Shown one piece after another: positions 1,002 to 20,789 of a DNA stretch of 20,948 bases. The notes beneath the pieces are model-generated. The model was not told where the DNA came from and searched no databases. It worked only from the letters and a program-made list of their open reading frames with translations. The DNA is taken from the IMG/VR virus record IMGVR_UViG_3300006917_000186, positions 1 to 20,948 of that record, one strand, 5' to 3'. This stretch comes from a virus. Within the stretch, counting starts at the first letter, position 1. The number at the start of each line of letters is the position of its first letter. A program made the position numbers and the translations under genes.

Positions 1002-1007
1002 ACACTA

Positions 1008-1036
1008 AATGTAGCGTATGAACATCTATTTGTCAA
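1008..1036 (-). promoter_or_regulatory. sigma70-type promoter, leftward
   Basis: On the minus strand TTGACA (1036-1031) and TACATT (1013-1008) are separated by 17 bases. It points at the terminator 963-989 less than 50 bases away and faces the promoter at 771-799. Confidence 0.7.
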
Positions 1037-1337: not shown

Positions 1338-1366
1338 TTGAGTTCTTGAATTGGTAGTGCTAAATT
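1338..1366 (+). promoter_or_regulatory. promoter of the rightward glycan and head operon
   Basis: TTGAGT (1338-1343) and TAAATT (1361-1366) are spaced by 17 bases, with initiation expected near 1373. The leader to ATG 1396 is about 23 bases and contains the Shine-Dalgarno-like AGAAAGGG at 1383-1390. No terminator is seen between here and the intergenic gap at 19954, so this promoter may drive the whole rightward array. Confidence 0.6.
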
Positions 1367-1395
1367 ACTAGTACGACACTTAAGAAAGGGCAGCC

Positions 1396-1698
1396 ATGAC
1401 AAAGAAATACAAAGTCACTTGTCTCAAATGCAAAGAATCTGATGTGCTTACTATCCTTGACGAACGGTATGTGACAGCCCAAGAGAGAGAGCTACAGACA
1501 AACATATTAGCCGCAAGGTTACGCACAGATGGCCTGTGGGGTTTTGAGTGTAAGTGTGGCAATGACAATCGTTTAGCAGCAAATGAAGTGGGGAGGATCG
1601 ATGAGCTAGTCATTCATGCAACAGGTGACCAAATGGATAAAATCAAGAGTCAGTTACTAACACCAGATAATAAGCAATTTACAATGGAGGCAGTATGA
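1396..1698 (+). CDS. small zinc-ribbon-like protein, function unknown (100 aa)
   Basis: The 100-residue protein has a CLKC pair at residues 9-12 and a CKC at 52-54, a spacing that suggests one treble-clef or zinc-ribbon site holding a metal ion. The middle segment (residues 24-48) is charged and probably helical. I recognise no specific family. It is the first gene of the rightward operon and its stop overlaps the next start (ATGA at 1695). A regulatory or nucleic-acid-binding role would fit a zinc ribbon in this position, but that is inference. The start is supported by AGAAAGGG upstream and by the promoter at 1338-1366. Confidence 0.65.
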   Translation: MTKKYKVTCLKCKESDVLTILDERYVTAQERELQTNILAARLRTDGLWGFECKCGNDNRLAANEVGRIDELVIHATGDQMDKIKSQLLTPDNKQFTMEAV

Positions 1699-2516
1699 AA
1701 GTAGCAATCGTAGGGTTTGGCAAAGTTGGTCAGTCATATAGCAAGATGTTCCCAGAGGCATTAGTTTACGATCCACCAAAGTTTCTATTTGCAGACGAAG
1801 AGGACGAAAAGAAAGGCAAAAAAGCAGTCAACAAGTGCGATGTTGCCATTGTTGCTGTATTCACTCCCCACAACAAAGACGGTAGCCTTGATATTTCTAT
1901 CGTCGAGGATGTAGTTAGCTGGATAGACTGTCCGCTTATAATTATCAAGTCAGCGTTGATGCCAGGCACAACAGATATGCTTGTCAAAAAATACAAGAAA
2001 CGTATCGCCGTATCAGTCGAGTATGTTGGAGAGGGTAACTATCCAGTACACTTCTGGAAGTACCCAGACCAGTCAGATCCACGCTTACACTCCATGCTAG
2101 TAGTGGGCGGTGAAAAAGAAGTTGCCGATGAAGCCGCCGAGGTTCTATGGTCTAGGATGTCGCCGGATGTAGATATACATGTTGTTACCGCTCTTGAAGC
2201 CGAGATCACAAAGCTGGTCGAGAATAGCTATGGTGCACTTAAGGTTACGTTTATCAATACCCTATTAAGCCTCGCACAGAAATCAGATACCAGCTTCATA
2301 AACATACACCAAGCGTGGCAGTCAGACCCCAGGACTGATTCTATGCATCTCAGAGCTGTACGGCACAATAGAGGCTGGGCTAGTAAATGTTGGGATAAAG
2401 ACGTTCCGGCACTTGCGGCCTATGCAAAGTCGGTGGGTGCAGATGATATGGCTAAACTGTTTAAAACCGTCATAAATCTAAACAAAGGGCACAGAAAACT
2501 CAATGATAAGGCTTAG
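1695..2516 (+). CDS. short UDP-glucose/GDP-mannose dehydrogenase-family protein (273 aa)
   Basis: Members of this family oxidise the C6 hydroxyl of a nucleotide sugar to a uronate using two NAD+. The N-terminus has a Rossmann motif GFGKVG (residues 7-12). The central domain shows ENSYGALKVTFIN with the expected Lys and Asn, and GWASKCWDKD carries the presumed catalytic Cys at 232. The protein ends 41 residues later, so the C-terminal UDP-binding domain of full-length enzymes (about 390-450 aa) is missing. It could still be a nucleotide-sugar dehydrogenase with another substrate mode, or a related hydroxyacid-type dehydrogenase. GGAGG precedes the ATG. It is followed, with a 14-base overlap, by a polysaccharide deacetylase gene, consistent with sugar modification. 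Confidence 0.75.
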   Translation: MKVAIVGFGKVGQSYSKMFPEALVYDPPKFLFADEEDEKKGKKAVNKCDVAIVAVFTPHNKDGSLDISIVEDVVSWIDCPLIIIKSALMPGTTDMLVKKYKKRIAVSVEYVGEGNYPVHFWKYPDQSDPRLHSMLVVGGEKEVADEAAEVLWSRMSPDVDIHVVTALEAEITKLVENSYGALKVTFINTLLSLAQKSDTSFINIHQAWQSDPRTDSMHLRAVRHNRGWASKCWDKDVPALAAYAKSVGADDMAKLFKTVINLNKGHRKLNDKA

Positions 2517-3069
2517 TTGCGACGATGGGTGTGCAAGCGATGTTCGTGTCGCTGCTATTGCCGAGAAGTACGAGCTTGAGTGTACGTTCTACTGGCCAGT
2601 TGAATGGCAGTCTCTAGCGTATGACTCAGGCTATAACCCGTTGACCTACGATGAGGCGTGTTATATTGCTAATCGCTTTGAGATAGGCTCCCATACAGTC
2701 ACACATAGACACCTAACTAACTTGCATGATGATGTAGCAGAGCGTGAGATCATGGAATCAAAATTCCAACTCGAAGCGTTGTTTAACACAAAGGTTACAA
2801 AGTTCTGCCCACCACGAGGCTATACCACACCAAGTCTATCCACCTTCACACACCAGATATATGATAGCCAACGCCTAACACGAGGTCGTGGTTTAGTCCA
2901 TGTTCACCCAAACAGTGGAGCAAACAACAATATACCCTGGCGTGAATATTACAAATCTATCAAAGATACAGTAGAGGATGTCGAACTGTGGATGCACTCC
3001 TGGGAGTTAAACAAATATGAACTTTGGGATGAGTTCGAGGAGTTTTTGAGTGAAAATCTATCTCGCTAA
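2503..3069 (+). CDS. NodB-homology polysaccharide deacetylase (CE4 family, 188 aa)
   Basis: CE4 enzymes remove N- or O-acetyl groups from glycans such as peptidoglycan, chitooligosaccharide or capsule, using a divalent metal. The motifs appear in order: SCDDG (residues 5-9, Asp7 and Asp8), GSHTVTH (62-68, metal ligands His64 and His68), PPRGY (103-107) and WMHSWE (163-168) with the late His165. The length fits a minimal single-domain enzyme. There is no signal peptide or membrane segment, so it should act in the cytoplasm, on a glycan intermediate or nucleotide sugar, rather than on the cell wall. It overlaps both neighbours. A role in making a free amino sugar for the cluster's product is inferred from context. 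Confidence 0.85.
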   Translation: MIRLSCDDGCASDVRVAAIAEKYELECTFYWPVEWQSLAYDSGYNPLTYDEACYIANRFEIGSHTVTHRHLTNLHDDVAEREIMESKFQLEALFNTKVTKFCPPRGYTTPSLSTFTHQIYDSQRLTRGRGLVHVHPNSGANNNIPWREYYKSIKDTVEDVELWMHSWELNKYELWDEFEEFLSENLSR

Positions 3070-3847
3070 TTATGAGCCTGAACGTAAAGGTGGTGGCTGG
3101 ACATTTGCCAGAAACTTCGTGAAAGGCATGGGCGATCTTATTACCCAAGACTATGCCGAAGCAACACATTACTTCATTACATCTGCCAGTATGGTGCAGA
3201 GAGCCGAAGTCCAACAGGCACAGGCAGACGGTAAAAAGATAGTTCTTAGGGTAGACAACGCAATCCGCAATTCCAATAATCGTAACACGGGTATGACACG
3301 CCTCAAAGACTTTGCTGACATGGCCGATACTATCATCTACCAAAGCCAGTGGGCTAGAAAGTTCCTACTACCATTTACCAAAAAAGACGGAGTAGTGATC
3401 TTAAATGGCATAGATACCTCTGTATATAACGACCAAAACCGACACGCCCCAGAAAGTTCCTACCTCTACGCTCGTAGCTCACGAGACGAGGGCAAAGGCT
3501 GGATTGATGCATGGTACTGGTTTGTTAACCACATCGGCACACTAGAGATAGTTGGCAAGTTCTCGGGCGAGAATATCGAGTACAATTTTGACTTCTACAA
3601 TGGCGAGAACTTTAGGTTCATGGGTGAGCAACCCTCACTCGTCGATAGCATGAAACGAAACAAGTATTTTCTGTATACCTATCTCAACGATGCATGTAGC
3701 AACACCTTGCTTGAAGCTAGAGCCAGTGGCATGGAGATTATAGATGTACACGGACGCTTGCAGACAGGTGGAGCACCAGAGATCATGGAGCTAGAGGATT
3801 TAAGTTTAGAGCGAATGTGCGATCAGTATCGAGAGGCACTATGTTAG
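3050..3847 (+). CDS. GT-B fold glycosyltransferase, GT4-like (265 aa)
   Basis: Starts at GTG 3050, with GAGGAG about 8 bases upstream inside the previous gene. The N-terminus carries GGGWTF (residues 14-19), a glycine loop typical of acceptor-side GT-B domains. NGIDTSVYN (119-127) is the usual linker before the donor domain, and DACSNTLLEARASG (214-227) is the donor-site region resembling the E-x7-E element of GT4 enzymes. At 265 aa it is shorter than the usual 350-400, with a compact donor domain, but the ends look natural. There is no membrane segment. The sugar and acceptor cannot be told from sequence. Confidence 0.8.
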   Translation: MKIYLANYEPERKGGGWTFARNFVKGMGDLITQDYAEATHYFITSASMVQRAEVQQAQADGKKIVLRVDNAIRNSNNRNTGMTRLKDFADMADTIIYQSQWARKFLLPFTKKDGVVILNGIDTSVYNDQNRHAPESSYLYARSSRDEGKGWIDAWYWFVNHIGTLEIVGKFSGENIEYNFDFYNGENFRFMGEQPSLVDSMKRNKYFLYTYLNDACSNTLLEARASGMEIIDVHGRLQTGGAPEIMELEDLSLERMCDQYREALC

Positions 3848-4272
3848 ATAGATTTAACACAAAATATAGGGTTAATGTCTATGGGTGCTGGGAATGGATT
3901 GCAGCTAGAACACCAGGCGGTTACGGGCTGTTTCACATAAACAAAAAGTTGGAATATTCACATAGAGTTAGTTATAAAATGTATATTGGCTCGATACCAA
4001 AGGGTCTACAAATAGATCATTTATGTAGAAACAGATCGTGCTGCAACCCCAATCATCTAGAAGCAGTTACGCCCCAAGAAAATGCCAAAAGAGGCACAGC
4101 AGGAGCCAAACTAGCCCAAAAAAACCTGGAAAAGACCAAATGTCCACAGGGACACAAATACCGAGGGGATAACCTGTATCTCAGAAGAGACAAACTTCAG
4201 AGAGGATGTAGAGCGTGTAGGATACAAGCATCCAGGGCGTATAGGACTAAAATTAAGGAGGCGTTACTATGA
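3841..4272 (+). CDS. HNH endonuclease, probably free-standing homing type (143 aa)
   Basis: The ATG at 3841 follows GAGAGG closely and overlaps the previous gene's end; an upstream in-frame GTG at 3817 is less likely. The protein has the HNH_3-type layout: CWEW (residues 16-19), GGYGLF, His41, IDHLC (58-62), then CCNPNHLEAVTP (67-78) supplying the Asn and second His. A C-terminal Cys/His cluster (CPQGH at 101-105, CRAC at 123-126) probably binds zinc. Such enzymes nick or cut DNA and often move themselves. It sits between glycan genes with ATGA coupling on its right side. Its A-rich sequence and use of AGA and ATA codons look unlike its neighbours, consistent with late insertion. Confidence 0.88.
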   Translation: MLDRFNTKYRVNVYGCWEWIAARTPGGYGLFHINKKLEYSHRVSYKMYIGSIPKGLQIDHLCRNRSCCNPNHLEAVTPQENAKRGTAGAKLAQKNLEKTKCPQGHKYRGDNLYLRRDKLQRGCRACRIQASRAYRTKIKEALL

Positions 4273-5312
4273 GCGATGATATGTGGGATGAACAACCCAA
4301 GAAGGTAAAACGAGTACTCATCACCGGTATAGGCGGGGCAATCGGTGTACACATTATGGCTCATTTTATGCATAACACAGACTGGGAAATTGTTGGTTTG
4401 GACTCGTTCCGACACAAGGGCTACAAAGACCGCATCACAACCTTTTGCCGTAACCACCCCGATTGGCTGCCACGGCTTACAATTATTCAGCACGATCTGG
4501 TATCTAATATCGGCGAAAAGCAAAAGAGTGATATAGGTCACATTGATTATGTGATAAATCTCGCATCTATATCTGATGTTGATCTAGCAATCACTAACCC
4601 AGTCTATACAATCAAGACTAACTCTGACCTGATGCTCACCATGCTCGAGTATGCCAGAGAGACAAAACCAGAGGTGTTTATCCAGTTCTCTACCGATGAG
4701 GTGTATGGAGCTGCTCCCGAGGGCTACTCACATGAGGAGTGGTCAACTATCCTGCCATCAAACCCATACAGTGCCAGCAAAGCAGCCCAAGAGGCATATG
4801 CAATAAGCTATTGGCGTACATATGGTGTGCCGCTTATCATCACAAACACTATGAACAACTTTGGCGAGACACAAGCACCCAGCAAGTTTCCTGCTATGAT
4901 TCAACGCAAATTACTCAAGGGCGAGACGGTGACTATCCACGGCACACCAGAGAAGGTCGGCTCACGATTCTATATGCACTCACGCAACACCGCAGACGCT
5001 CTATTATTTATCCTCAAGAATACTAAACCCTACCTGCATCAGGACGGCCATATCGACCAGCCCGATAGATACAACCTAGTGGGCGAGAAGGAGCTAACGA
5101 ACTTAGAGCTAGCCCAACTGATTGCCAAGCTAATGAACAAAGAACTTAAGTATGAGTTTGTAGACTTCCACGCAGCTCGCCCAGGCCATGATAGACGCTA
5201 TGGGTTAGATGGCAAGAAGCTAGACGATATGGGCTGGAAACCGCCTGTACCATTTGAGGAGAGCCTAAAAAATACTCTAGAGTGGACAATGAGACACGAG
5301 GAGTGGTCGTGA
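4269..5312 (+). CDS. extended SDR nucleotide-sugar epimerase/dehydratase, dTDP-glucose 4,6-dehydratase-like (347 aa)
   Basis: An extended short-chain dehydrogenase with all the key motifs: TGIGGAIG NAD-binding loop (residues 19-26), STDEVYG (141-147) with the Asp143-Glu144 pair typical of 4,6-dehydratases, and NPYSASK (165-171) with the catalytic Tyr167 and Lys171. Length is normal. Enzymes with TDE in this place usually make 4-keto-6-deoxy nucleotide sugars, the branch point to rhamnose and many unusual deoxysugars; a plain epimerase is also possible. It has a strong AAGGAGG site and an ATGA overlap with the HNH gene. It would supply an activated sugar to the neighbouring glycosyltransferases. 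Confidence 0.87.
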   Translation: MSDDMWDEQPKKVKRVLITGIGGAIGVHIMAHFMHNTDWEIVGLDSFRHKGYKDRITTFCRNHPDWLPRLTIIQHDLVSNIGEKQKSDIGHIDYVINLASISDVDLAITNPVYTIKTNSDLMLTMLEYARETKPEVFIQFSTDEVYGAAPEGYSHEEWSTILPSNPYSASKAAQEAYAISYWRTYGVPLIITNTMNNFGETQAPSKFPAMIQRKLLKGETVTIHGTPEKVGSRFYMHSRNTADALLFILKNTKPYLHQDGHIDQPDRYNLVGEKELTNLELAQLIAKLMNKELKYEFVDFHAARPGHDRRYGLDGKKLDDMGWKPPVPFEESLKNTLEWTMRHEEWS

Positions 5313-5869
5313 GTAGTAGTTACCGGCAGTCGCTTAATGATTGGTTGTCACGTCTCGATGTCAAGGCCGAGAAGGTACTAGATATTGGCGGTAGCCAGGT
5401 AACGATGCCAAAGCGTGTTCGGAGCTGGGACGTTGAACAGTACACGATCAGTGATCTACCTGAACCCCACGAGGATAGCCCCAAGCCAGACATAGAAATG
5501 GACTTAAACCTGGTCTACGAACCCTTTGGCAGTTATGATCTGGTCTTTTGTCTTGAGGTCTTTGATTATGTATATAACCCCATGCAAGCGTTTATTACTA
5601 TTGCAAACCAACTAATAACCGGTGGGGTAGCATGGGTGACGTTCCCTAGTATCTATCCCTTACACCAACCAGTCGAGGACGACGCACTTCGCTATATGCC
5701 TGGAGGTATTAGGAAACTAGCACAATCTGTTGGCCTGACCATTGAGGAGATGATACCCCGCCGCTTTGAGACAGATGCATGGGACAGAACTATCCGAGCG
5801 GAACGTTTGAGAGCAGCTAAACATCAAGACCACAATTTTAGTGGTTGGATTGTGAAGTTCAAAAAATGA
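5309..5869 (+). CDS. class I SAM-dependent methyltransferase (186 aa)
   Basis: The preferred start is GTG at 5309, which overlaps the previous stop as GTGA and has GAGGAG about 6 bases upstream; an in-frame GTG at 5282 would add nine residues. VLDIGGS (residues 23-29) is the SAM-binding loop, and SYDLVFCLEVFDYV (75-88) is the motif before the fourth strand of Methyltransf_11-type enzymes. There is no DNA- or RNA-specific motif such as DPPY. In this cluster it most likely methylates a sugar hydroxyl, a frequent capping step, but small molecules or proteins are possible. Confidence 0.78.
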   Translation: MSSSYRQSLNDWLSRLDVKAEKVLDIGGSQVTMPKRVRSWDVEQYTISDLPEPHEDSPKPDIEMDLNLVYEPFGSYDLVFCLEVFDYVYNPMQAFITIANQLITGGVAWVTFPSIYPLHQPVEDDALRYMPGGIRKLAQSVGLTIEEMIPRRFETDAWDRTIRAERLRAAKHQDHNFSGWIVKFKK

Positions 5870-6408
5870 AGGCGTATATTACTAGCGTAGGCGAGCCAAC
5901 AACAGACCTATGTGTCTACAGTGTTGAGCGAAATGGCTTTGAAGCTGTATTGATACAAGATGCTAACACCACTCTGGCACAAAAGCTCAAACAGATATAT
6001 GAACAAGCAGATGATGATTTTATACGAGTGGACGCTGATGTGGTGCTCAACAAGACCTTAAATAGTAAGAGTGTAGTCTATCACCAGGGCGACAAGGTAT
6101 GGACGCAGTTTAAGACGTGGGATTGGTTGCAGCAAGCCGTTTGTCATGGCGGTGTGCAATTTATTCGCAAGGCTGCACTACCAATACTCCGCAAGAATAT
6201 AGATACATTTATGGAAGCCGAGAGACCAGAGAGCCAGATGTTTCGGCTAGATGAGTTCCACAACCCTCGAAAATGTGAGACATCGAACTGGATAGTTGGT
6301 CTACACGCATACAAAAGTGACCTAGAAGCAGTCAAACTGGTTAAGACAAGACGCAAACAACTAGACAACTACGACTTTGAATTAGCAGAGAGGTTGAACG
6401 AGCTATGA
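5866..6408 (+). CDS. small GT-A-like glycosyltransferase (180 aa)
   Basis: The ATG at 5866 overlaps the preceding stop (ATGA). The segment DDDFIRVDADVVLN contains a DxD motif (Asp56-Ala-Asp58) at the end of a short nucleotide-binding half, as in GT-A glycosyltransferases, where the two Asp hold metal and nucleotide sugar. The rest holds a WxQ/HGG-type stretch (CHGGVQFI) and ends in a Lys/Arg-rich helix. At 180 aa it is shorter than usual (about 230-300), so it may be a minimal enzyme. Assignment rests on the DxD context and on the neighbours, so it is less certain than the others. Confidence 0.6.
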   Translation: MKAYITSVGEPTTDLCVYSVERNGFEAVLIQDANTTLAQKLKQIYEQADDDFIRVDADVVLNKTLNSKSVVYHQGDKVWTQFKTWDWLQQAVCHGGVQFIRKAALPILRKNIDTFMEAERPESQMFRLDEFHNPRKCETSNWIVGLHAYKSDLEAVKLVKTRRKQLDNYDFELAERLNEL

Positions 6409-7214
6409 AGCTATCCATATTCACCACTGTCACCAATGCAGAGGAACGAGGCGATAACTGGCGAGATGCGTTTGACTGTTACCGAGAGTTAGCTGATGAG
6501 TTGGTAATTGTAGACGGTAGCCGAACAGCAATGTCTGAGTCCGATTGGGATGGCAAAGAGACTATCGTACACCACAAATGGCCACAAAACTTTGATTGGC
6601 CGTTCATTGGCCAGCAGTTTCAACGTGGGTACGAGGCTGCTACAGGTGATTGGGTCATCCATGCAGATGTTGATTTCATATTCCATCAAGGTGACTTTAC
6701 TGCTATACGTCAGGCAATGGAGAACAACCCAGACGCACCGGCTCTGAGTTTTTACAAGTGGCAGTTTACGTTGCCCGATAGGTATAACCTCAAGTCAAGA
6801 CTCGTCATAGCAGTAAACAAGAAGGTATACGGAGATCGTATACGCTTTGACTCTGGTGGCGATCTATGTCAACCCTCATTAGACGGCAAATACATAGACC
6901 CTTCTGATGTGCCAGAGGCTCGTATACCTATCTATAATTACGAGAAGTTGCTCAAAACCGAGGCACAGATCAGAGACGATGTAACCCGCATGGCTCGTGC
7001 GTGGCACAAACATTTCAAGGAACCGAAACTTGGTACAGAGGATAGTGCCTACTTTGAATGGTTGAATATGTCACTAGGACGGTTCAAGAAGCCACAAAAG
7101 CAGATAGCGTTAAGTGACCACCCGAAATATGTGCAGAAAACTATACAAAACTTAAAGCGTAGCCAGTGGGGGTACTCAGGGCTGGGGCATTTGAAGGAGA
7201 TCAAATATGTTTAG
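6405..7214 (+). CDS. GT-A glycosyltransferase, GT2-like (269 aa)
   Basis: The N-terminus MKLSIFTTVTNAEERGDNW is the first strand and loop of a GT2-like fold, followed by DELVIVDGS (residues 31-39), where the Asp contacts the base. Then GDWVIHADVDFIF (81-93) carries the DxD motif Asp88-Val-Asp90. These give an inverting GT-A glycosyltransferase with a roughly standard single-domain length. No membrane segment is visible, so it is soluble. It is coupled to both neighbours (ATGA at 6405 and an overlap with the next start at 7207). Donor and acceptor are unknown. Confidence 0.78.
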   Translation: MKLSIFTTVTNAEERGDNWRDAFDCYRELADELVIVDGSRTAMSESDWDGKETIVHHKWPQNFDWPFIGQQFQRGYEAATGDWVIHADVDFIFHQGDFTAIRQAMENNPDAPALSFYKWQFTLPDRYNLKSRLVIAVNKKVYGDRIRFDSGGDLCQPSLDGKYIDPSDVPEARIPIYNYEKLLKTEAQIRDDVTRMARAWHKHFKEPKLGTEDSAYFEWLNMSLGRFKKPQKQIALSDHPKYVQKTIQNLKRSQWGYSGLGHLKEIKYV

Positions 7215-8772
7215 GGTAGTGTGTGTTGTAGACAAAGAGAGAACAGCATTAGATCGTTTGGCTCAAGGTGTAAAACCTTATCACCAAAACATTGACTATC
7301 ATGTTGTGGCTGTACACCCAAAGCGACCGTCACCAGAGCAACTACAGGAGTTCTTGAGTCTTGCACAGACATCTGATGTTATAGATTACCAGTACTTTAG
7401 AACGGCAGAGATGTTACGCAAAAACTATGAGTGGTTAAAAGACATCCCGAGTATCCTCACGCATAACAATCCCTACTCAATCAAAGAGAGCGATTGGAAC
7501 GACTATCAGATCAACGTGGGTAACAACAACGAGATATACGGCAACCTCAAACAAATCACGACAACACGAGTGGAGAAAATCCCCATTGTTGTAGACCCCC
7601 ACCAGTGGACGTTCAATGATAGCTACGAGTACAACCGTTCAGTTATCATGGTAGCCAACAGGATAGAGAGCAAGAAGGGCATATTGCCGGTAGCTCTGGC
7701 ATGTAAGGCACTCGGTATTAAAATGTACCTAGTCGGAGCTATATCAGATATGGCTTACTGGCAAGAGGTTATGGCTACACAAGCAGTCGAGTTTGCCCAA
7801 GAAGTGACTGATGATGAGTTAAAAGCCCTCTACTACAAAGCAGGTATATTAGTTTGCAACTCGGTAGATGGGTTTGAATCTGGCACAATGCCTGTACTTG
7901 AGGCTATATTCTGCGGCGTTCCTGTTATAAGTCGTCCAGTTGGTCACGTTCCCGACATCTTGAACGGCGACAACATAATGATTCAAGACAAAGCCCCAGA
8001 TGATGTTATACGCATACAGGAGCTTATTAGTGAATTGCTGGCAGATAAGAAGCGTATTGAACGTGTTAGGCACGAGGCATGGCTCAAGATCAAAGACCGT
8101 AACTTTGAACGCCGAGCGTATATGTATCAACGGCTGTATCGTAGCCTGACACCAGGCGAACCAGTGTCTATAGTAATACCAGTAGCAAATAAGCCAGAGG
8201 TTACCTCAAAATGCCTCACCGCAGCACTTAACCAGACATACCCAAACATCGAATTGTTAGTTGTTGATGATGGGGTAGAACCTCAACACCAAACAGTTGC
8301 TAGTATTGCCCTTACAGCGAATATCCCTATCCGCTACATACGACTGGGGGATGATAAATATAACCTGGCCAAAGCCCGCAACATCGCAGCCATCGAAGCT
8401 ACATCAGACATATTAGTGTTCTGTGACCAGCGTATGATTATGGACAAGGATTGTGTCGACGAGTTTGTGAAAAACCTAGAGCCAAAGAAGTGGCTATATG
8501 GTAGCAAAGGCGTAAAAAAGGATTTCATTGAGAACATATCTTGTATCAATCGCAATGAGTTCTTCACCTTTGGCATGTTTAGTGAACGATGCGAGCAGTA
8601 CGGAGCACTAAGCCAAGAGACACGGCTGCGAGCCAGGAGGCAAGGGTTTGATCTAAAGTATGCAGAAACAGCAAAAGCCACCCCAGAGGGTAAGTCCTCG
8701 AACAAGAGAAGTAAAAAATATGAAATAATGGCTAGTAAAAACTGGCTATGGAAGGCAGGGCTAGAGGGATGA
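7207..8772 (+). CDS. two-domain glycosyltransferase: GT4-type GT-B plus GT2-type GT-A (521 aa)
   Basis: Residues 1 to about 310 form a GT-B enzyme: KIPIVVDPHQW linker, SVIMVANRIESKKG at the donor-domain start, and GFESGTMPVLEAIFCGVPV, with the E-x7-E pair Glu224 and Glu232. From residue 318 a second enzyme begins, EPVSIVIPVANKPE, with LNQTYPNIELLVVDDG and NLAKARNIA, clear GT2 signatures. Its metal motif reads DQR (407-409) rather than DxD, so the second Asp is replaced by Arg; this site may use another ligand or be weak. AAGGAG precedes the ATG. A fused pair suggests two consecutive sugar additions, perhaps of a repeated disaccharide. Sugars are unknown. Confidence 0.85.
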   Translation: MFRVVCVVDKERTALDRLAQGVKPYHQNIDYHVVAVHPKRPSPEQLQEFLSLAQTSDVIDYQYFRTAEMLRKNYEWLKDIPSILTHNNPYSIKESDWNDYQINVGNNNEIYGNLKQITTTRVEKIPIVVDPHQWTFNDSYEYNRSVIMVANRIESKKGILPVALACKALGIKMYLVGAISDMAYWQEVMATQAVEFAQEVTDDELKALYYKAGILVCNSVDGFESGTMPVLEAIFCGVPVISRPVGHVPDILNGDNIMIQDKAPDDVIRIQELISELLADKKRIERVRHEAWLKIKDRNFERRAYMYQRLYRSLTPGEPVSIVIPVANKPEVTSKCLTAALNQTYPNIELLVVDDGVEPQHQTVASIALTANIPIRYIRLGDDKYNLAKARNIAAIEATSDILVFCDQRMIMDKDCVDEFVKNLEPKKWLYGSKGVKKDFIENISCINRNEFFTFGMFSERCEQYGALSQETRLRARRQGFDLKYAETAKATPEGKSSNKRSKKYEIMASKNWLWKAGLEG

Positions 8773-9848
8773 CACCAGAAAAAGACAGGATCAAAGTATT
8801 TGGGGTACTGAACCACTTGGGCAATCAGTACGATATGCTAAAGATCACCAAAAAGTACCCTATTAAGTTCTATTGGCTAGAGAACAACGTCCGTAAATGG
8901 AACAAGTTTTCACCTCGTCCGGCTCCGGAGACTATATACACCAAAGATGAATTTGAATATGTACAGTATTACGAGCCAGGCAAATATGATATAGCGATGT
9001 TGCACGTTGATCAGCAGCATGTCAATCCGCATATTGGCAAGGGCTATCTCTATAAACAGATGAACGAGATCATCCAAGACATACCCAAGATAGTGATCAA
9101 TCATGGTACGCCCATGTATGCAGAAATGTATGATGAGGAGACTGTCATTAACGGCGGCGATACTATAAACTCACGGGGCGAAAAAGTCCATGTTAAGGGC
9201 ATGAAAGAGCTGATTGGTGATAACTTCATGATTGTGAACTCCTACGAGGCAGCGGAGCGATGGGGATGGGGCTATCCTATCATCCACGGTATGACTGCAG
9301 ACGAATGGTGGGATCTACCAAAAGAACCTCGTGTGACTGTAATGATTTCCCCTGGTGGGCTAGACAAATACTATAATCGTCAACTACTCTCAGCCATAAA
9401 GTTCAAGGTTAAGGAGCGTACCGGTATTGATGTGCAGCACATTACGGTAAATTACAAAGCTCATGATTGGGATGACTACCGAGACTTCCTCGGCCGTTCC
9501 CTGATATACATAAACCCAACACTCGACAGTCCTATGCCAAGAGCGAGGACAGAGGCTATGTTGTCTGGTTGCTGTGTGCTGACATCACGCTACCACGGAG
9601 CAGAGGACTTTATCCAAAGCGGTAAAAATGGCTTTATTATGCCTGACAACCCCGACAGCTACGCTGAGACTATCAATGAGCTAGTCCACAAACACTATCA
9701 AGAAACGGTAGCAATTGGGCGGCGGGGCAAAGAAACAGCTCAAAAGCTATTCAACGTTGAACGGTATCACAAGCAGCTGTTCAAGATAATAGAAAAGGTG
9801 GCTAATGGCCAGAAACCAGTCTGGCATGGAGTAGACAAGATATGGTAG
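8769..9848 (+). CDS. GT-B glycosyltransferase (359 aa)
   Basis: ATG 8769 overlaps the preceding stop (ATGA); the in-frame ATG at 8748 lies inside the previous gene and is not preferred. The N-terminal half ends with KIVINHGTPMYAEMY, the nucleotide- and acceptor-facing cleft. The donor half contains PRVTVMISPGGLDKYYNR (residues 187-204) and then SPMPRARTEAMLSGCCVLTS (254-273), the region equivalent to the GT4 E-x7-E loop (Glu262), followed by GKNGFI. Length is normal for GT-B. No signal peptide or membrane helix is present. The exact family is uncertain. Confidence 0.8.
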   Translation: MTPEKDRIKVFGVLNHLGNQYDMLKITKKYPIKFYWLENNVRKWNKFSPRPAPETIYTKDEFEYVQYYEPGKYDIAMLHVDQQHVNPHIGKGYLYKQMNEIIQDIPKIVINHGTPMYAEMYDEETVINGGDTINSRGEKVHVKGMKELIGDNFMIVNSYEAAERWGWGYPIIHGMTADEWWDLPKEPRVTVMISPGGLDKYYNRQLLSAIKFKVKERTGIDVQHITVNYKAHDWDDYRDFLGRSLIYINPTLDSPMPRARTEAMLSGCCVLTSRYHGAEDFIQSGKNGFIMPDNPDSYAETINELVHKHYQETVAIGRRGKETAQKLFNVERYHKQLFKIIEKVANGQKPVWHGVDKIW

Positions 9849-10699
9849 TACGATGGCAAACATTTGAGCAGTATCACAACAAAAAGGATATTGGGTCAAC
9901 AAGAATCAGGGTTCATAACCTCAATAAGTTCTGGCCTGAATCTGGTCTATACAGATACGGAGAAAAAGCTGATGTAATGATCTTCCAAAAGGTGTACTGC
10001 ACCTATGATTACAAACTCCCAGCCCATTACCCAGGTGTTCGCATACTTGATACTTGCGACCCTGACTGGCTGCAAACCCCAGACATCTATATCAAAGAGA
10101 CACTAGACAACGTTCACGCTGCTGTCGTTCCAACCGAATCAATGCGTGAGTATCTACAAGGTATGACAGACACACCAGTACGGATTATTAAAGACCGGTT
10201 TGTGATTGAGGATTTCCCGAAGCCAAAAGTTCACAATGGCGAGCTAAAAACTGCAGTATGGTTTGGCTATGCCCACAATGCGGAGCTTTTGCAATCTGCT
10301 ATACCTAGTCTTGAGAAACGAGGCATTAGCCTAATTGTCATCGCTAATGATGACCCTATGCTTTACCGCTATGCCAACGACTCGGTAGCCTACCAAGAAA
10401 AATACCAGTACATTAAGTTCAACCAGGATACACTCTATACCGATATACAAAAGGCTGACATTTGCATTATGCCCAAAGGCTATAGACACGAGGACAGATG
10501 GAAGTCCGAGAACAAGACAGTCATTGCACAGCTCTGTGGGTTACCAGTCTGTCAGACCGCAGAGGAACTGGATGAACTGGTAGAGGCCGAGGATAGGCAA
10601 AAGCACATTGACCCGATTTATGATATAGTAAAGGTTGAATACGACTGTCGTAAGAGCGTACAAGAATATAAGGATTTGATCGATGAAGTTAAAAGCTGA
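9842..10699 (+). CDS. GT-B glycosyltransferase-like protein (285 aa)
   Basis: The N-terminal STRIRVHNL and VMIFQKVY resemble the acceptor domain of GT-B proteins, and LKTAVWFGYAHNAELL (residues 135-150) opens a donor-like domain. ADICIMPKGY and WKSENKTVIAQLCGLPV (220-236) form the donor loop, close to the KSxNR-like sequence seen in many predicted glycosyltransferases. It overlaps the previous gene by seven bases and the next by 17, the last of the sugar genes before the DNA methyltransferase. The family is not certain, and a non-catalytic or regulatory homologue is possible. Confidence 0.65.
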   Translation: MVVRWQTFEQYHNKKDIGSTRIRVHNLNKFWPESGLYRYGEKADVMIFQKVYCTYDYKLPAHYPGVRILDTCDPDWLQTPDIYIKETLDNVHAAVVPTESMREYLQGMTDTPVRIIKDRFVIEDFPKPKVHNGELKTAVWFGYAHNAELLQSAIPSLEKRGISLIVIANDDPMLYRYANDSVAYQEKYQYIKFNQDTLYTDIQKADICIMPKGYRHEDRWKSENKTVIAQLCGLPVCQTAEELDELVEAEDRQKHIDPIYDIVKVEYDCRKSVQEYKDLIDEVKS

Positions 10700-11864
10700 A
10701 CAGATCGTTCCCAACCTAGAGAACCCTCGCTACATTAAAGACGAGAACTTTCGCAAGTTAGTCCAAAGCCTCAAAGACTTCCCTGAAATGGCAGAGGTGC
10801 GACCGCTAGTGGTCAACAAAGATTATGTGATACTTGGCGGTAATATGCGGTTTAAAGCCATGCAGCAAGCCGGATGGAAAGAGATACCCGTCACAGTAGT
10901 AGATTGGCCGGAGGATAAGCAAAAAGAGTTCATTATCAAAGACAACGTGTCTGGCGGTGATTGGGATTGGGATGTGTTGGCTAATGAATGGGACGCCACG
11001 GAGCTAGAGGCTTGGGGGCTAGATTTACCAGCCAAGTTTGGCGATGAAGAAGTCGAAGAAGATGAAGCCCCAGAGGTTAGCAAAGACCCCCCCCAGTCTG
11101 TCCTAGGTGCGGTCTACCAGTTGGGGAGGCATAGGGTTATGTGTGGGGATAGTACGGACAAAGCTAGTGTTGAGTTACTGATGGACGGACAGAAGGCTGA
11201 TTTGATACTGACCGACCCACCCTATAACATCGCCAGCGACAGTACTAATTTTGCCAGCGATGTATCAAAAGCTATGAAAGACTTGTCGGAGTCAGAATGG
11301 GACAAAGGGTTCGATACTATGACAGTAGTGCCTATATTGCAGGACATTGCGAACGACAACTCTACAACCTATATATTCACTAGCCACTTTCTATTTGGCG
11401 AACTGTTCGAGCAGTATAAAAATTGGGCAGACTTTACCGGCTACAATGTATGGAGCAAACCTAACCCTATGCCTAGCTTGGCAAAGCGACATTGGACTTG
11501 GAGTAGTGAGTTATGTCTTTACGCTACAAAAGGCAAGCAGGTATTTAACTTTATAAACGGTGAGCATAACCTAAGTGTATGGAGTATCACTAAAAAGTCA
11601 GATGGCTCACACCCTACGCAAAAGCCGATAGAGTTACTGGCTAATATCGTTCAGCACAGCTCTAACAAAGGGCAATTAGTAGCTGACCTATTCCTCGGCT
11701 CTGGCTCTACTCTAATAGCATGTGAACAAACAGACCGCACTTGCTACGGCATGGAGCTAGACCCCAAGTATGCAGATGTCATACGCAAACGCTATGCGAA
11801 GTTCATACAGCCAGACAATCAATTACCAGAGAATTGGGAGGAGCTTACACCAGCTATAAACTAA
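10683..11864 (+). CDS. ParB-like domain fused to beta-class N4/N6 DNA methyltransferase (393 aa)
   Basis: Residues 1 to about 115 form a ParB/Sulfiredoxin-like domain: IVPNLENPR, then RPLVVNKDYVILGGNMRFKA (GGNMR at 52-56 in place of the ParB GxRR box). After an acidic linker (EEVEEDEAPE, 122-131), the methyltransferase part begins with the VYQLGRHRVMCGDS lead-in. DPPY at 178-181 precedes FLGSGS at 337-342, so the catalytic motif comes before the SAM motif, the beta-class order, with target recognition between. It methylates adenine N6 or cytosine N4. No restriction enzyme lies beside it, so self-protection, packaging control or gene regulation are the likely roles. Confidence 0.88.
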   Translation: MKLKAEQIVPNLENPRYIKDENFRKLVQSLKDFPEMAEVRPLVVNKDYVILGGNMRFKAMQQAGWKEIPVTVVDWPEDKQKEFIIKDNVSGGDWDWDVLANEWDATELEAWGLDLPAKFGDEEVEEDEAPEVSKDPPQSVLGAVYQLGRHRVMCGDSTDKASVELLMDGQKADLILTDPPYNIASDSTNFASDVSKAMKDLSESEWDKGFDTMTVVPILQDIANDNSTTYIFTSHFLFGELFEQYKNWADFTGYNVWSKPNPMPSLAKRHWTWSSELCLYATKGKQVFNFINGEHNLSVWSITKKSDGSHPTQKPIELLANIVQHSSNKGQLVADLFLGSGSTLIACEQTDRTCYGMELDPKYADVIRKRYAKFIQPDNQLPENWEELTPAIN

Positions 11865-11865
11865 T

Positions 11866-12267
11866 ATGGAAGAAACTACAAAGCAAGTTACTCCACCAGA
11901 GAAACGTAACCCAACGGGCAAGGGTGGTTTTGGTGATAATCCACAGAATAGATCAGACGGTGGCTGGAAGAAAGAGAATACCATCAGCTATCAATACAAA
12001 CGATTCCTCAATATGTCACCAGACGAGCTCAAAGCATTTGCAAGCGTACCGGAATCAGAGCGTACAGTTGCAATGGATATAGCATACTCGCAGGTGTTAG
12101 CCAGCCGTAAATCATTGCCTCATGCTAAGGAGATCACCGATAGAACCGAAGGCAAACCAGCTCAACACCTCGACCATACAATCACCACGAATCCTGTAGA
12201 CAAAATATTGGGCAAATTTGAAATAGAGGATGGGGCTATAGATGCTGGACAAACTCCGGAGGCTTAG
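11866..12267 (+). CDS. putative terminase small subunit (133 aa)
   Basis: The gene lies directly upstream of the large terminase and overlaps it by 26 bases. The N-terminus is a polar, Gly/Asn/Lys-rich segment (KRNPTGKGGFGDNPQNRS), the kind found in DUF5681-type proteins next to phage terminases. The middle, ESERTVAMDIAYSQVLASRK, is predicted helical and could provide DNA binding or oligomerisation. The small subunit recognises the phage genome's packaging site and hands it to TerL. Assignment is by position and by the N-terminal pattern; no clear helix-turn-helix is visible. No good Shine-Dalgarno site is seen, so the start is provisional. Confidence 0.6.
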   Translation: MEETTKQVTPPEKRNPTGKGGFGDNPQNRSDGGWKKENTISYQYKRFLNMSPDELKAFASVPESERTVAMDIAYSQVLASRKSLPHAKEITDRTEGKPAQHLDHTITTNPVDKILGKFEIEDGAIDAGQTPEA

Positions 12268-13789
12268 AAAAGAGTATCTCAAAAACGTTCATGGTGTTAC
12301 GTTTTATCCGTATCAAGAGGTTATATCTGACCGCATTATTGTAGCGTTGCTAGAGAATCTCCGCATAACAGCTGGAGCGACAGAGGATGATATTAAGAAG
12401 TTACGCCGGCACGAAATACACATCGAGATAAGTCGTCAGGCTGGCAAAACAACAGCGGTGGTTCATACTATCGACTTCATTATGGTGTTCCTAACCAGGC
12501 ATTTTCGCCGGCAACTCGCAATTGGCATCTTTGCACCGCAAAAGGAACAGGCCAAGACCGACTTTGATAGGTTAAAGGTAGCACTCAAACGATCTAGCCC
12601 ATTATGGCTTAATAGCGAACCTCTAGGGGATGATGATGCAGAGTGGGGCAAATACTACCAGGAGCAGAGCAATAGTAATACAATCGTGCTGCCAGACGGC
12701 TCGTCTTGCTATATCTTCCCTGTAACTAAAACCTCAAAGCCTGAGAGTAAGTCGCTCGACCTTATTGTGTTTGAGGAGAGCCAAGACCTAGAGGACAGGA
12801 TTGTTAAAGAGCAGATATGGCCTATGGGTGCTAATACAAACGCTCCAATGGTATATATCGGCACAGCCGGTACACGCATCTGCTACTTCTATAGGCTAGG
12901 GCAGAACCCCGAAAGCATAAAGCTATACTTCGATCAGATAGCAGTACAACGCCGTGAGGTGTACGACGAAACGGGGGATGTGCGTCACCTTGTGTATGAA
13001 CGCACTATAGATCAGGAGATAGAGAAGCATGGTAGGGAATCGGACGAGATAGCTAGGCCATACTTCGGTAAGTGGCTGATCGGTACAGGGCAGTTTGTCA
13101 CACAAGAGGACTTAGATAAGCTACAAAGTGATCGCAAAGAGACGTTCCACGATAAACAAAGCCCTTGTTTTGTAGGCATAGACACGGCAAAAAACCCAGA
13201 CAGTACAGTTATAACCATACTTCGTTACAATAACGGTCAAAAGGTAAAAGAGGTTATACGTTGGGGTGAGCTACGAGGTGAGAACTACCAAAGCCAGTTT
13301 GATGTAATAAAAAACCTATTGGGCAACTATAATGTTGTAGCAATTGCAATAGATAGTACAGGCCAGGGCGACTTTATGCCGGATATGTTCCAAGCACACA
13401 CTAGCTGGCGTGACGAGAACAGCGGATTGTATCGTGTTAAGTTTTCATCTGTTAGCAAGGACAATCTATACAAAAACCTCAAAGTAACTATCAAAGAGTT
13501 GTTGACGACACTACCTAAATTAGATACAAAGGTAGGTGAGAAGTTCAAACTACAGATGCTTGATCTTCAACAAGAATATAAAGGACAATTGTTAAGTGTT
13601 CATCACCCAGATGCATCAGATGCACACGATGACTACCCTGACAGTTGGGCATTAGCTGAATGGGCGTATGCAAAATACAATGAGAATCAAGCAGAAATAC
13701 AATTCATTCAATACATTGACCCGAACGAGAGGGCAGTAACCTATGACGATAAGGGAGCGGTTACAGACTATTGGCCAGGCATTTCGTAG
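12242..13789 (+). CDS. terL: terminase large subunit (515 aa)
   Basis: This is the ATPase-nuclease motor that cuts and pumps phage DNA into the prohead. The Walker A-like sequence is SRQAGKTT (residues 64-71). The Walker B is LDLIVFEESQD, with the acidic pair Glu178-Glu179. The nuclease half, with an RNase-H-like fold, has acidic residues at FVGIDTAKN (Asp314), IAIDSTGQGD (Asp371) and DAHDDYPDSWALA (Asp463, Asp464 and Asp467). Length is normal. It overlaps the small subunit upstream and the portal downstream by 47 bases. The organisation identifies a headful or cos packaging phage, but which type cannot be told here. Confidence 0.93.
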   Translation: MLDKLRRLRKEYLKNVHGVTFYPYQEVISDRIIVALLENLRITAGATEDDIKKLRRHEIHIEISRQAGKTTAVVHTIDFIMVFLTRHFRRQLAIGIFAPQKEQAKTDFDRLKVALKRSSPLWLNSEPLGDDDAEWGKYYQEQSNSNTIVLPDGSSCYIFPVTKTSKPESKSLDLIVFEESQDLEDRIVKEQIWPMGANTNAPMVYIGTAGTRICYFYRLGQNPESIKLYFDQIAVQRREVYDETGDVRHLVYERTIDQEIEKHGRESDEIARPYFGKWLIGTGQFVTQEDLDKLQSDRKETFHDKQSPCFVGIDTAKNPDSTVITILRYNNGQKVKEVIRWGELRGENYQSQFDVIKNLLGNYNVVAIAIDSTGQGDFMPDMFQAHTSWRDENSGLYRVKFSSVSKDNLYKNLKVTIKELLTTLPKLDTKVGEKFKLQMLDLQQEYKGQLLSVHHPDASDAHDDYPDSWALAEWAYAKYNENQAEIQFIQYIDPNERAVTYDDKGAVTDYWPGIS

Positions 13790-16124
13790 TAAGCCGGAAG
13801 TAGTTGTTCGTGAAGTTGAGGCGAAGCAAAAGGCAAGTGCGGGTTATGTCGACATATTCAACAATACGACCGGACTTGTTACCCAGACACGAGCCTCTAG
13901 TAAGCTGTTAGATGCAAACGAGGGCTGGGTTTATAAAAACAACGATGCTATAGCTAAAGAGGTAGCGACTATTGAGTTCGAGCTATTTACTACACGAGTA
14001 GTAGCCGGCGAGATTGAGCTAGTGCCTATCCTCTCGCACCCTATCCTCGATGCACTAGACCGTTTTAACGAGTTTACTGATGCAAGTAGCGGTTTCTATC
14101 TAACCAGTTCACACAAGACGCTGGCTGGTGATGCAATCTGGTATATAGACGGTACGCCCCCGAACATACGAGGCATTTACCTATTGCAGCCGGATAAAGT
14201 AGAGATTAAGCTAGGCAAGCCATCATTTGGCCAGGCCATCATACAAGCCTACGAGTTTAAGGATAGTGTCAACGGTAAACAAGTCACAGAGACGTATAAA
14301 GCCGAGGAGATCGTCCACTTTAAGGCTCCTAATCCAAATAATGCCTATCGTGGTAAGTCAAAGGTACAAGCTGCGGCAGAAGCTATCGACACAGATAACT
14401 TTGCTATAGAGGCAAACAAAGGTCTGTTCCAACGTGGACTGATTGGTAACTTTGTATTGTCTACTCAAAACGCTATGACACCAGAGCAAATGAAAGTAGT
14501 CCGTACTGAGCTACAAGCTAACTATGGCGGGGTTACTAACGCGTATAAAGCTATGATCCTATCTGGTGGGCTGAAACCAGAGACTATTCAGCTCACCAAC
14601 AAGGAAATGGAGTTTATAGACCAACAGAAGTGGAACAGAGACAAGATAATGTCTATCTTTGGCAACGTCCCACCTGTGCTTGGTATCACTGACGACGTGA
14701 ACCGAGCCAACGCAGATGCTACGATCATGCACTGGAAGCGAACCACCGTTAAACCTGAAATGAAAGCCATTACCGATACACTCAACGAGTTCTTTGTACC
14801 AAAGTTTGGCGACAACCTGATACTAGGTTTCAAAGACCCAGTACCAGAGGACAGAGAAACCAAAGTCAAAGAAGCTGTTGACCTTCATACTGCTAATATC
14901 ATAACAACCAACGAGGCTCGTGAAAGTCTTGGACTAGAGGCTAGCACTGAGGAAGGTGCAGACATACTAGCTCAGCCAACCCCCGAAGCTATCCCAGTGG
15001 ATCTACCAAAGAGCGTTAAAAACGTTGATTACATGAGGGTATTCCGCAAGCATGGTGTATTTGAGGAGCGAACCAAGCAAATAGAAGCTCGGCAAGCAGC
15101 TATTGCCATTCGTGATACAGCCCGACAGATCATCAAGGGCAAACGTAAGGTTGTCACAAAGGCAACAGAGACACCAGAGCACGAGTCATTTACCAATGAG
15201 CAGGTTTGGTCGTTCCACAGGCGACAGATAGATGTCGTTGAGCATACTGAGCAAAAGTTCCACAATAAAGTCACCCAGTACATTGATGGCCTAGTAGATC
15301 GAGCGTTGGAAGCTGTGCCAGGCGAGGTTGCCGAAATGAGTAAGGCATTGATTAATGAAGATGCTGAGATCACTAGAGCAATGATTGACTTTACCCCGAT
15401 ACTTACAGAGGTTGCAGCCCTATCCGGTCAGCTAGCGATGAGCTTAGTTGGCGATTCAACCTACATACCGACCGACATTACTGGCTTTATCGAGAGAGAA
15501 GTCAAACGCTTTGCTACTTCCATGATAGAAACAGACCGAGATAAGATGATCGACCTGTTAGTGCAGGGCATTGCTGATGGTAAGTCAATCCCTCAAATCA
15601 AAGCCGATATACGGCAAGTATTTACTGAATATAGCAAGACACAGGCTGACAGAGTAACCCGAACCGAGGTAATCAAGGCTTCTAACTACGCTACAATGGA
15701 CGCTTGGGACAAGAGTGGGGTTGTGGTAGCAAAACAGTGGCTAACAGCCTTAGACGACCGTGTAGACCCTCTATGTGCCGAAATGAACGGCAAGATCATA
15801 CCACTTAAAAAGAATTACTTTGATAAGGGCGATACACTAGAGGTTGGCGATGTATCCACCAAGTTTGACTATGCATCTGTCAAAAACCCACCGCTGCATG
15901 TCAACTGTCGCTGCACAATGCTGCCAGTCCTCGTAGACCAGAAGGCATTTGATACCGAGACATATATAAAAATGAAAACATTAGAGCGAGATGCAGAGGA
16001 ACTAACCTCTAAGATTGATACAATGGATAAGCGAACAAAGGAAGCAAAGCAGATAATAGCTACCAGAGATGAGCGTATAACTGAACTGGAGAACTTGATA
16101 GATGAAATCTCCGCAGCAGATTAA
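13743..16124 (+). CDS. portal protein fused to MuF-type head morphogenesis domain (793 aa)
   Basis: Residues 1 to about 420 are an HK97-type portal: ANEGWVYKNNDAIAKEVATI, AEEIVHFKAPNPNN and FGNVPPVLGI are typical of phage_portal proteins, which form the dodecameric DNA gate. A helical linker follows (about 420-600). Then a MuF domain (about 637-735) has RVTRTEVIKASNYATMDAW and the conserved end PPLHVNCRCTML (Cys722 and Cys724). MuF proteins are minor capsid components ejected or placed at the portal vertex. The last 60 residues are a predicted coiled coil. Portal and MuF are usually separate genes; here they form one chain. The start lies within the terL end, with GAGGGC upstream. Confidence 0.9.
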   Translation: MTIRERLQTIGQAFRSKPEVVVREVEAKQKASAGYVDIFNNTTGLVTQTRASSKLLDANEGWVYKNNDAIAKEVATIEFELFTTRVVAGEIELVPILSHPILDALDRFNEFTDASSGFYLTSSHKTLAGDAIWYIDGTPPNIRGIYLLQPDKVEIKLGKPSFGQAIIQAYEFKDSVNGKQVTETYKAEEIVHFKAPNPNNAYRGKSKVQAAAEAIDTDNFAIEANKGLFQRGLIGNFVLSTQNAMTPEQMKVVRTELQANYGGVTNAYKAMILSGGLKPETIQLTNKEMEFIDQQKWNRDKIMSIFGNVPPVLGITDDVNRANADATIMHWKRTTVKPEMKAITDTLNEFFVPKFGDNLILGFKDPVPEDRETKVKEAVDLHTANIITTNEARESLGLEASTEEGADILAQPTPEAIPVDLPKSVKNVDYMRVFRKHGVFEERTKQIEARQAAIAIRDTARQIIKGKRKVVTKATETPEHESFTNEQVWSFHRRQIDVVEHTEQKFHNKVTQYIDGLVDRALEAVPGEVAEMSKALINEDAEITRAMIDFTPILTEVAALSGQLAMSLVGDSTYIPTDITGFIEREVKRFATSMIETDRDKMIDLLVQGIADGKSIPQIKADIRQVFTEYSKTQADRVTRTEVIKASNYATMDAWDKSGVVVAKQWLTALDDRVDPLCAEMNGKIIPLKKNYFDKGDTLEVGDVSTKFDYASVKNPPLHVNCRCTMLPVLVDQKAFDTETYIKMKTLERDAEELTSKIDTMDKRTKEAKQIIATRDERITELENLIDEISAAD

Positions 16125-17243: not shown

Positions 17244-17428
17244 AGGCTACTTACAAGAAATACTACAATCTTGATTCTGATACCGAAGCTTCGTATGTTA
17301 AGTGGAATATATCAGATGGGGGTGATGTTGAAGTCCCTGACCTTACCACTACGGGAGAGATGGGTTCAACTAAAGAAGACTTAGATATTCTGATAGACCA
17401 AGTAATACAAGGATATGAGGTGATCTAA
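17240..17428 (+). CDS. very small acidic protein (62 aa)
   Basis: A 62-residue protein with a basic and aromatic start (KATYKKYYN) and an acidic remainder, including KEDLDILIDQVIQGYEV. I recognise no family. The ATGA overlap on the left and the TAATG overlap on the right, with AGGTGA near its end serving the next gene, suggest that it is translated as part of the operon. It could be a small chaperone or linker for the following 841-aa protein; this is inference from position only. Confidence 0.5.
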   Translation: MKATYKKYYNLDSDTEASYVKWNISDGGDVEVPDLTTTGEMGSTKEDLDILIDQVIQGYEVI

Positions 17429-20015: not shown

Positions 20016-20789
20016 GTGAACTATACAAAGGCAGTCATCACAGAAAAATCGGCAGACGAATTTACTGCCGTTGCTTCTAGTGACACCAGAGATCGACATG
20101 GCGACATAGTGAAGCAAGATGGATGGGATCTAAAGAGTTACAAAGACAATCCTATTCTATTATTCATGCATGACCACACCAAACCTATAGGTAAATCGAC
20201 AAAGGTGTGGATTGAGAAGTCAGGTAAGACTGCGAAACTGATGTTCAAGGGCGTTATAAGCTCCGCTACCGAAGAAGCACGAGCCGCAAAGCAATTGATG
20301 ATGGAAGGTATACTAAACTCCTTCTCGGTGGGTTTTATGCCTATGGAAATGGATGGCAGCACCATTACTAAGTCTGAGCTGCACGAAATATCCCTGGTAT
20401 CCGTTCCCGCCAACCCAGATGCACGTTTACAAGTGGCCAAGTCACTGAAAGAGGCAGGATTTGAGGATAGTATTATTGAGAAGTTTGCACCAGAGGCTGA
20501 CGACAACCGTGAGGTCGTTGAGCTGAGAGAGTTAGTCACGGAACTTAGAAGTGAGCTTGAATCCGTAAAGGACAAAGCTGATATGGCGGTAAAGGGGTTG
20601 CAACACCTCGCACCGCAAAGGTCGAAGCCGGAAGTCGCTACAGAGCGTCTCCGTATGAGTAAAGCGATCGCACGAGCTGCGGACAAACTACTTGTGGGAG
20701 GCGTATCTCGTGAAAAAGCGATGTACCAGGCAAAAATAATAAAACGTTCTAGCGAAATGCTAATACGTTCTAACAAAGGAGACCTATAA
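20016..20789 (+). CDS. HK97-family prohead protease (peptidase S78, 257 aa)
   Basis: Starts at GTG 20016 with GGAG seven bases upstream. The S78 protease domain shows DRHGDIV (residues 26-32), LFMHDHT (49-55) with the catalytic His region, NSFSVGF (101-107) with the nucleophile Ser104 expected, and ELHEISLVSVPANPDA (121-136) with the acidic residue of the triad. It cleaves the scaffold or delta domain of the capsid protein and itself during prohead maturation. The C-terminus (about 165-257) adds a coiled coil (LRELVTELRSELESVKDKAD) and a basic tail, a likely scaffold-type extension. Its neighbour downstream is the presumed capsid gene. Confidence 0.92.
   Translation: MNYTKAVITEKSADEFTAVASSDTRDRHGDIVKQDGWDLKSYKDNPILLFMHDHTKPIGKSTKVWIEKSGKTAKLMFKGVISSATEEARAAKQLMMEGILNSFSVGFMPMEMDGSTITKSELHEISLVSVPANPDARLQVAKSLKEAGFEDSIIEKFAPEADDNREVVELRELVTELRSELESVKDKADMAVKGLQHLAPQRSKPEVATERLRMSKAIARAADKLLVGGVSREKAMYQAKIIKRSSEMLIRSNKGDL

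Follow-up and report, generated by a model that had tools for sequence, protein, structure and literature searches.

Why does a phage carry a long series of sugar enzymes directly ahead of the genes that package its DNA? The question is raised by a virus record of 20,948 bp (IMGVR_UViG_3300006917_000186, analyzed at full length and called the window below), which is probably a fragment. A block of sugar-related genes at 1695–10699 lies immediately upstream of genes for a DNA methylase, a probable small terminase, the large terminase (TerL) and the portal. It encodes glycosyltransferases (GTs) without a membrane anchor, comprising up to seven GT domains, and its core is an old module shared across a clade of uncultivated tailed phages. 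By analogy with known viruses, the block may direct the late synthesis of a cytoplasmic glycan that is attached to a virion protein, a reading that we consider evenly balanced against all others taken together.

Organization of the sugar block

The original prediction described a gapless plus-strand run of genes with overlapping starts, and junction overlaps of 4–31 nt are indeed found throughout 1396–11864. The same arrangement extends over 1396–17243 of the plus strand, spanning the methylase, terminase and portal genes, with overlaps of 1–47 nt at nearly all junctions and a single gap of 1 nt. Nine sugar-related genes had been counted, but the list given with that count sums to ten: a nucleotide-sugar dehydrogenase, a polysaccharide deacetylase, an RmlB-type dehydratase, a methyltransferase, five single-domain GT candidates and one enzyme combining GT4 and GT2 domains. 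The sugar genes stand as described; the assumption that nothing else interrupts them does not, since an HNH homing endonuclease gene (3817–4272), overlooked earlier, separates the first GT from the dehydratase. Scanning for promoters and terminators returned sites no more numerous than in shuffled sequence. We infer a single late transcript covering the block and the head genes.

A second contig of 29,625 bp (G001), 99% identical to the window, covers its positions 1–10988. Past the overlap come oppositely oriented early genes, followed by those for lysis, tail, tape measure and major capsid protein, and the contig breaks off inside a gene closely related to the S78 protease gene at the right edge of the window. 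Combining these two similar, non-identical contigs arithmetically, we infer a map of ~38.7 kb, circular or permuted, in which the block heads the rightward operon. No polysaccharide export genes were noticed in the window or in G001.

Conservation of the block across a phage clade

Relatives of the block are reached only with profiles: single-sequence searches with the GT4+GT2 enzyme or the short dehydrogenase retrieved one to three viral contigs, whereas profile searches yielded 58 viral loci and five contigs from metagenome-assembled genomes (MAGs). Iterative profiles and removal of near-duplicates left a survey set of 54 non-redundant contigs that, besides the window, carry the GT4 enzyme GTy. 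Many of these contigs are truncated, and the gene counts are therefore lower bounds. The core consists of GTy (54 contigs), the last transferase GTz (51) and the GT4+GT2 enzyme (47), followed by the methyltransferase (32), the first GT at 3050–3847 (27), the GT2-like enzyme at 6405–7214 (22), the dehydrogenase and the deacetylase (21 each) and the RmlB-type dehydratase (only 10). The dehydratase was also tried as a marker of the block and abandoned, as its search gave 80 loci, nearly all of them blockless, which identifies it as a widespread accessory. Gene order is largely kept across dozens of divergent phage contigs, a recurrence beyond what chance would give.

The search proposed originally, for the same block beside terminase genes in related contigs, succeeded many times: in 45 of the 54, a TerL, portal or protease gene lies within ~5 kb after GTz and on its strand. 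Among the remaining nine, some end earlier, one has no nearby phage genes and some are marginal matches. The association persists across two terminase families (phrog_2 and phrog_38). It also survives a second gene order, seen in some phages (L151, L171 and L178), in which the terminase gene falls within or ahead of the block and GTz lies directly next to the portal; the terminases concerned belong to two PHROG families. Pairwise distances of GTz correlate with those of the portal (r = 0.86 for 38 phages; none of 2000 permutations reaches this value), much as those of TerL do (0.85), whereas the dehydrogenase shows a correlation of only 0.36; the comparison covers genes of the block and of the packaging and head region. 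The correlations indicate joint inheritance of the module core and the head genes, with more frequent exchange of the dehydratase and dehydrogenase. The original description of an island recently spliced into the virion operon is rejected accordingly: the GC content of the block equals that of its neighbours, and its conservation is deep. In 50,697 GenBank phage records, tblastn found no match to GTy, GTz or the methyltransferase; the GT4+GT2 enzyme had one weak partial match, in an unannotated faecal phage record.

Mobile elements have repeatedly entered these genes. Inteins or Hint insertions are found in GTz (L181:11115–13043), in the GT4+GT2 enzyme (L148:5583–8192) and in the portal (L171:12041–15526 and L178:12081–15269), and a Hint match is present in TerL (L115:11904–14162). 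The overlong GTz, GT4+GT2 and portal proteins of relatives had been candidates for GT–virion protein fusions, and turned out to be intein-bearing instead. Placement in GT, portal and TerL genes is typical of conserved essential genes, which lends indirect support to the importance of the GT genes. Together with the HNH gene of the window, relatives of which were absent from the block-bearing contigs surveyed, the inteins show that GT genes are homing targets beside classic essential phage genes.

Predicted enzymes of the block

Among the block proteins, whose enzyme activities are putative, two tailoring enzymes show invariant residues. In the dehydrogenase, C232, K235 and D236 of the Cys/Lys/Asp catalytic motif are invariant among aligned relatives, as are D7, D8, H64 and H68 in the deacetylase. 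The dehydrogenase aligns to the first ~290–300 residues of solved UDP-glucose dehydrogenases, the match ending near position 287–320 of 390–490; the C-terminal UDP-binding domain is missing from the window protein and from four aligned relatives (about 264–284 aa). Short UDP-glucose dehydrogenases of this kind were seen in this clade (1695–2516) and in Microbacterium phages (L015:12016–12798). The latter, for example Metamorphoo, likewise pair a short dehydrogenase of 260 aa with a neighbouring GT, near a ParB-like gene, but the likeness involves two genes only, at 25–30% identity, with no GT block.

Among the GT assignments of the original prediction, those at 5845–6408 and 9842–10699 have no informative sequence-family match. 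Structure prediction supports the second: the model of GTz, built with 28 relatives, matches the GT-B enzymes PimA, BshA and SenB. For the first it is less decisive—the model has a GT-A-like fold and an invariant DxD motif, and sugar nucleotidyltransferases match it about equally—so that this protein is a probable glycosyltransferase. The absence of membrane helices and signal peptides is upheld, as a hydropathy scan found none convincing in the block proteins. The two highest hydropathy values, 1.67 in the short-chain dehydrogenase/reductase (SDR) and 1.63 in the GT4+GT2 enzyme, are interpreted as buried segments of Rossmann type.

Hosts of the clade

One 78.6-kb Magasanikbacteria MAG contig holds a block-bearing phage, preceded by genes for ATP synthase and seryl-tRNA synthetase. 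This region is apparently a prophage; neither an integrase nor an attachment site was recognized in it, and a chimeric join is possible. Full-length relatives of the portal-MuF protein occur in seven of 380 Patescibacteria genomes (470–1004 bits), and no match above 250 bits was obtained in 395 Bacteroidota genomes. Upstream sequence is readable for five of the six other Patescibacteria portal hits: four lack the block, and the fifth (L217) has different GT-like and SDR genes before the terminase. The GTy profile matched 140 of the 380 Patescibacteria genomes, all but one (G016) weakly and only with the C-terminal GT4 part. MAG bins named Nitrospirae, Cloacimonadota and Bacteroidales contributed single matching contigs each, possibly misbinned. 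At least one phage of the clade thus seems to infect Patescibacteria, which are a plausible host of the window phage. Portal-MuF phage regions were also observed at L212, L213, L214 and L216 in Patescibacteria genomes; a GAPDH-like gene adjoins L213 and L214 and may be an integration site.

Possible targets of the glycan

If the glycan is destined for the virion, the phage enzymes would draw on host nucleoside diphosphate (NDP) sugars, the short dehydrogenase oxidizing an NDP-sugar and the RmlB-type dehydratase forming a 4-keto-6-deoxy sugar. Up to seven GT domains would then assemble a short glycan in the cytoplasm, to be deacetylated and methylated and finally linked to a virion protein during particle assembly, so that a sugar-coated phage is released. 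The best-supported case for a virion glycan combines gene architecture with analogy to mycobacteriophages and chloroviruses. In mycobacteriophages, phage-encoded GTs add sugars to the capsid and the tail tube (Che8, Corndog and Myrna; Freeman et al. 2023 as cited in PMC12363180), and the same source describes Che8 gp110 and Corndog gp38 as single essential capsid GTs. The likeness lies in phage-encoded GTs and in a virion protein as the proposed target. The scale differs: in place of single capsid GTs, the head operon here holds up to seven GT domains together with a dehydrogenase, a deacetylase, a dehydratase and a methyltransferase. At the sequence level, tblastn of GenBank phages, which among the GTs covered GTy, GTz and the GT4+GT2 enzyme, revealed no homology of mycobacteriophage GTs to GTy or GTz. 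The capsid protein of chlorovirus PBCV-1 is glycosylated in the cytoplasm by mostly soluble virus-encoded GTs and a methyltransferase (PMC5408694). The resemblance to the block, drawn by description, includes soluble cytoplasmic GTs (GT4 and GT-A), a methyltransferase, nucleotide-sugar enzymes and no endoplasmic reticulum, Golgi or export step. PBCV-1, however, is a eukaryotic virus whose capsid glycan has been established chemically and genetically, whereas here the glycan is predicted and the genes are clustered with head genes. A bolder version, to which we lend only tentative credence, would make this phage clade, at least some of whose members infect Patescibacteria, a counterpart of chloroviruses with autonomous cytoplasmic glycoprotein machinery. 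Its particles would bear a glycan of several sugars, methylated and deacetylated, and its GT genes would belong to the head module throughout the clade.

The original prediction had reasoned from soluble enzymes coupled to packaging and head genes to a glycan on a cytoplasmic acceptor, perhaps the 841-aa Ser/Thr-rich protein. Its premises are sustained, in that the enzymes are soluble, no export system was found and the tie to packaging and head genes is both conserved and jointly inherited; its recent insertion and its choice of acceptor are not. Full-length homologues of the 841-aa protein are found in only three of the related contigs examined (L142, L173 and L019), a lower bound, as many contigs stop before that gene. 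Because so few relatives have it while the block is present in more than 50 contigs, the protein is unlikely to be a general acceptor, and its patchy distribution removes it as a candidate for that role. A clade-wide acceptor, which would presumably be a virion protein, is more likely to be a conserved one, such as the capsid, tail tube or portal. In the 841-aa protein and its relatives, a C-terminal region of ~200 residues is conserved and the middle is variable, as in exchangeable fibres.

Several points weigh against attachment to the virion. Sugar on the particles is predicted from gene content, and no GT fused to a virion protein was found among relatives. An acceptor linked to a host lipid would need no phage flippase either, and the gene linkage can persist by vertical inheritance alone, the correlations being drawn from block, packaging and head genes. 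Most Patescibacteria prophages whose portal and protease are homologous have no such block, so the head proteins are not always dependent on it. The main rival is modification of the host surface: phage GTs would make or remodel an oligosaccharide held on a lipid carrier of the host, which host enzymes would flip and export, and the changed surface would block superinfection or alter adhesion. The enzyme set resembles those of exopolysaccharide and O-antigen synthesis, the block is present in an apparent prophage, and O-antigen nucleotide-sugar genes including rmlB in groundwater Patescibacteriota phages have been interpreted as serving surface modification (PMC12911398). Serotype-conversion gtrABC and Wzx/Wzy clusters also place GT2 and GT4 enzymes in a phage or surface-polysaccharide cluster, but their membrane flippase (GtrA), polymerase-like multi-helix proteins and initiating transferase are not found across the block family. 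The expectation that related phages lack an export system beside the block was confirmed for the families searched: among 38 block-bearing virus records, which may be fragments, neither the initiating transferase (PF02397) nor the flippase (PF01943) was detected, with positive controls. A protein with at least three hydrophobic segments occurs in the block interval of only two of the 54 contigs, one being an intein-bearing portal, and the window block encodes no multi-helix membrane protein. The deacetylase without a signal peptide and the stable linkage to portal and terminase also speak against a surface role, which we regard as rather improbable.

Two further readings carry less weight than either. 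The GTs might decorate a modified base of the phage DNA ahead of packaging, in the manner of T-even phages and their relatives, and the block does adjoin a DNA methyltransferase gene just ahead of the terminase. Yet the thymidylate synthase/dCMP hydroxymethylase family (PF00303) is absent from all 38 records, again with positive controls, and no hydroxymethylase of the thymidylate-synthase type is found among the tested early genes of G001. TET/JBP dioxygenases gave no match in the 38 records either, in a search that lacked a positive control, since no control genome matched. A deacetylase and a dehydrogenase would also be atypical for such a role, and DNA glycosylation appears very unlikely. 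Scarcely more probable is a soluble or lipid-bound glycan made for another purpose, as a glycolipid or infection metabolite, its linkage to head genes being a by-product of vertical inheritance. The fold neighbours of GTz include the small-molecule GTs BshA and SenB, but a small molecule would hardly account for so many GT domains or for their constant place beside the head genes.

If attachment to virion proteins is correct, virion glycosylation extends from a few mycobacteriophage transferases to a multi-enzyme head-operon pathway in a large clade of uncultured phages, and the clade becomes a source of many new soluble glycosyltransferases. It would also raise the question of why a phage of ultra-small, surface-dependent bacteria should wear sugars. 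Even if the host surface is the target, so stable a tie between a pathway of this kind and packaging genes is unusual.

Features of the window

Table 1. Genes of the sugar block and of the adjoining packaging and head region in the window (AF2, AlphaFold2; pLDDT, predicted local distance difference test; SAM, S-adenosylmethionine; ORF, open reading frame).
Feature	Position	Strand	Basis
100-aa Cys-rich (zinc-ribbon-like) protein, opens rightward operon	1396..1698	+	ORF call; weak sub-cut-off CapR match; 109-aa relative in G008
Short nucleotide-sugar dehydrogenase, UDP-glucose dehydrogenase family	1695..2516	+	PF00984 8.7e-14, PF03721 1.7e-9
NodB-type polysaccharide deacetylase, no signal peptide	2503..3069	+	PF01522 2.4e-10; PDB deacetylases 1.8e-14
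GT4-like glycosyltransferase candidate, conserved block member	3050..3847	+	PF13692 0.038 from single sequence (weak)
HNH homing endonuclease (HNH_3), non-sugar	3817..4272	+	PF13392 1.9e-16; phrog_826 1.4e-46
dTDP-glucose 4,6-dehydratase-like SDR (RmlB type), accessory	4269..5312	+	TIGR01181 5e-60 (below curated cut-off); PF16363 1.9e-41
SAM methyltransferase	5282..5869	+	Methyltransf_11/23 about 1e-3
Small GT-A-like protein, invariant R-x-D-A-D (DxD)	5845..6408	+	Alignment; AF2 pLDDT 90; PDB GT-A/nucleotidyltransferase folds
GT2-like glycosyltransferase	6405..7214	+	PF00535 2.9e-4, just under cut-off
Two-domain GT4 + GT2 glycosyltransferase, core	7207..8772	+	PF00534 8.4e-12, PF00535 3e-17
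GT4 glycosyltransferase GTy, core	8748..9848	+	PF13692 1.9e-10; query family of survey
GT-B fold glycosyltransferase GTz, core, last before packaging genes	9842..10699	+	AF2 pLDDT 95; PDB GT-B matches from 5e-9
ParB_N + N6/N4 DNA methyltransferase	10683..11864	+	PF01555 1.4e-29, PF02195 2.9e-8
Probable small terminase subunit	11866..12267	+	Position and size; no family match
Large terminase subunit	12242..13789	+	phrog_2 1.1e-19; alignment
Portal fused to Mu F-like head morphogenesis domain	13743..16124	+	PF04860 7.8e-52, PF04233 1.9e-15
841-aa Ser/Thr-rich virion-like protein	17428..19953	+	24.5% S+T; no Pfam match
S78 prohead protease	20016..20789	+	PF04586 9.1e-11

Two minor observations concern other genes of the clade. 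A 186-aa early protein without a Pfam match (L017:4496–5056) contains a PPC motif and resembles a short cytosine methyltransferase. Adjacent proteins that vary in sequence (16102–17243 in the window and L019:3270–4055) share a similar C-terminal ending, W-x-N/D-R-x(4)-Y, possibly an assembly or folding tag.

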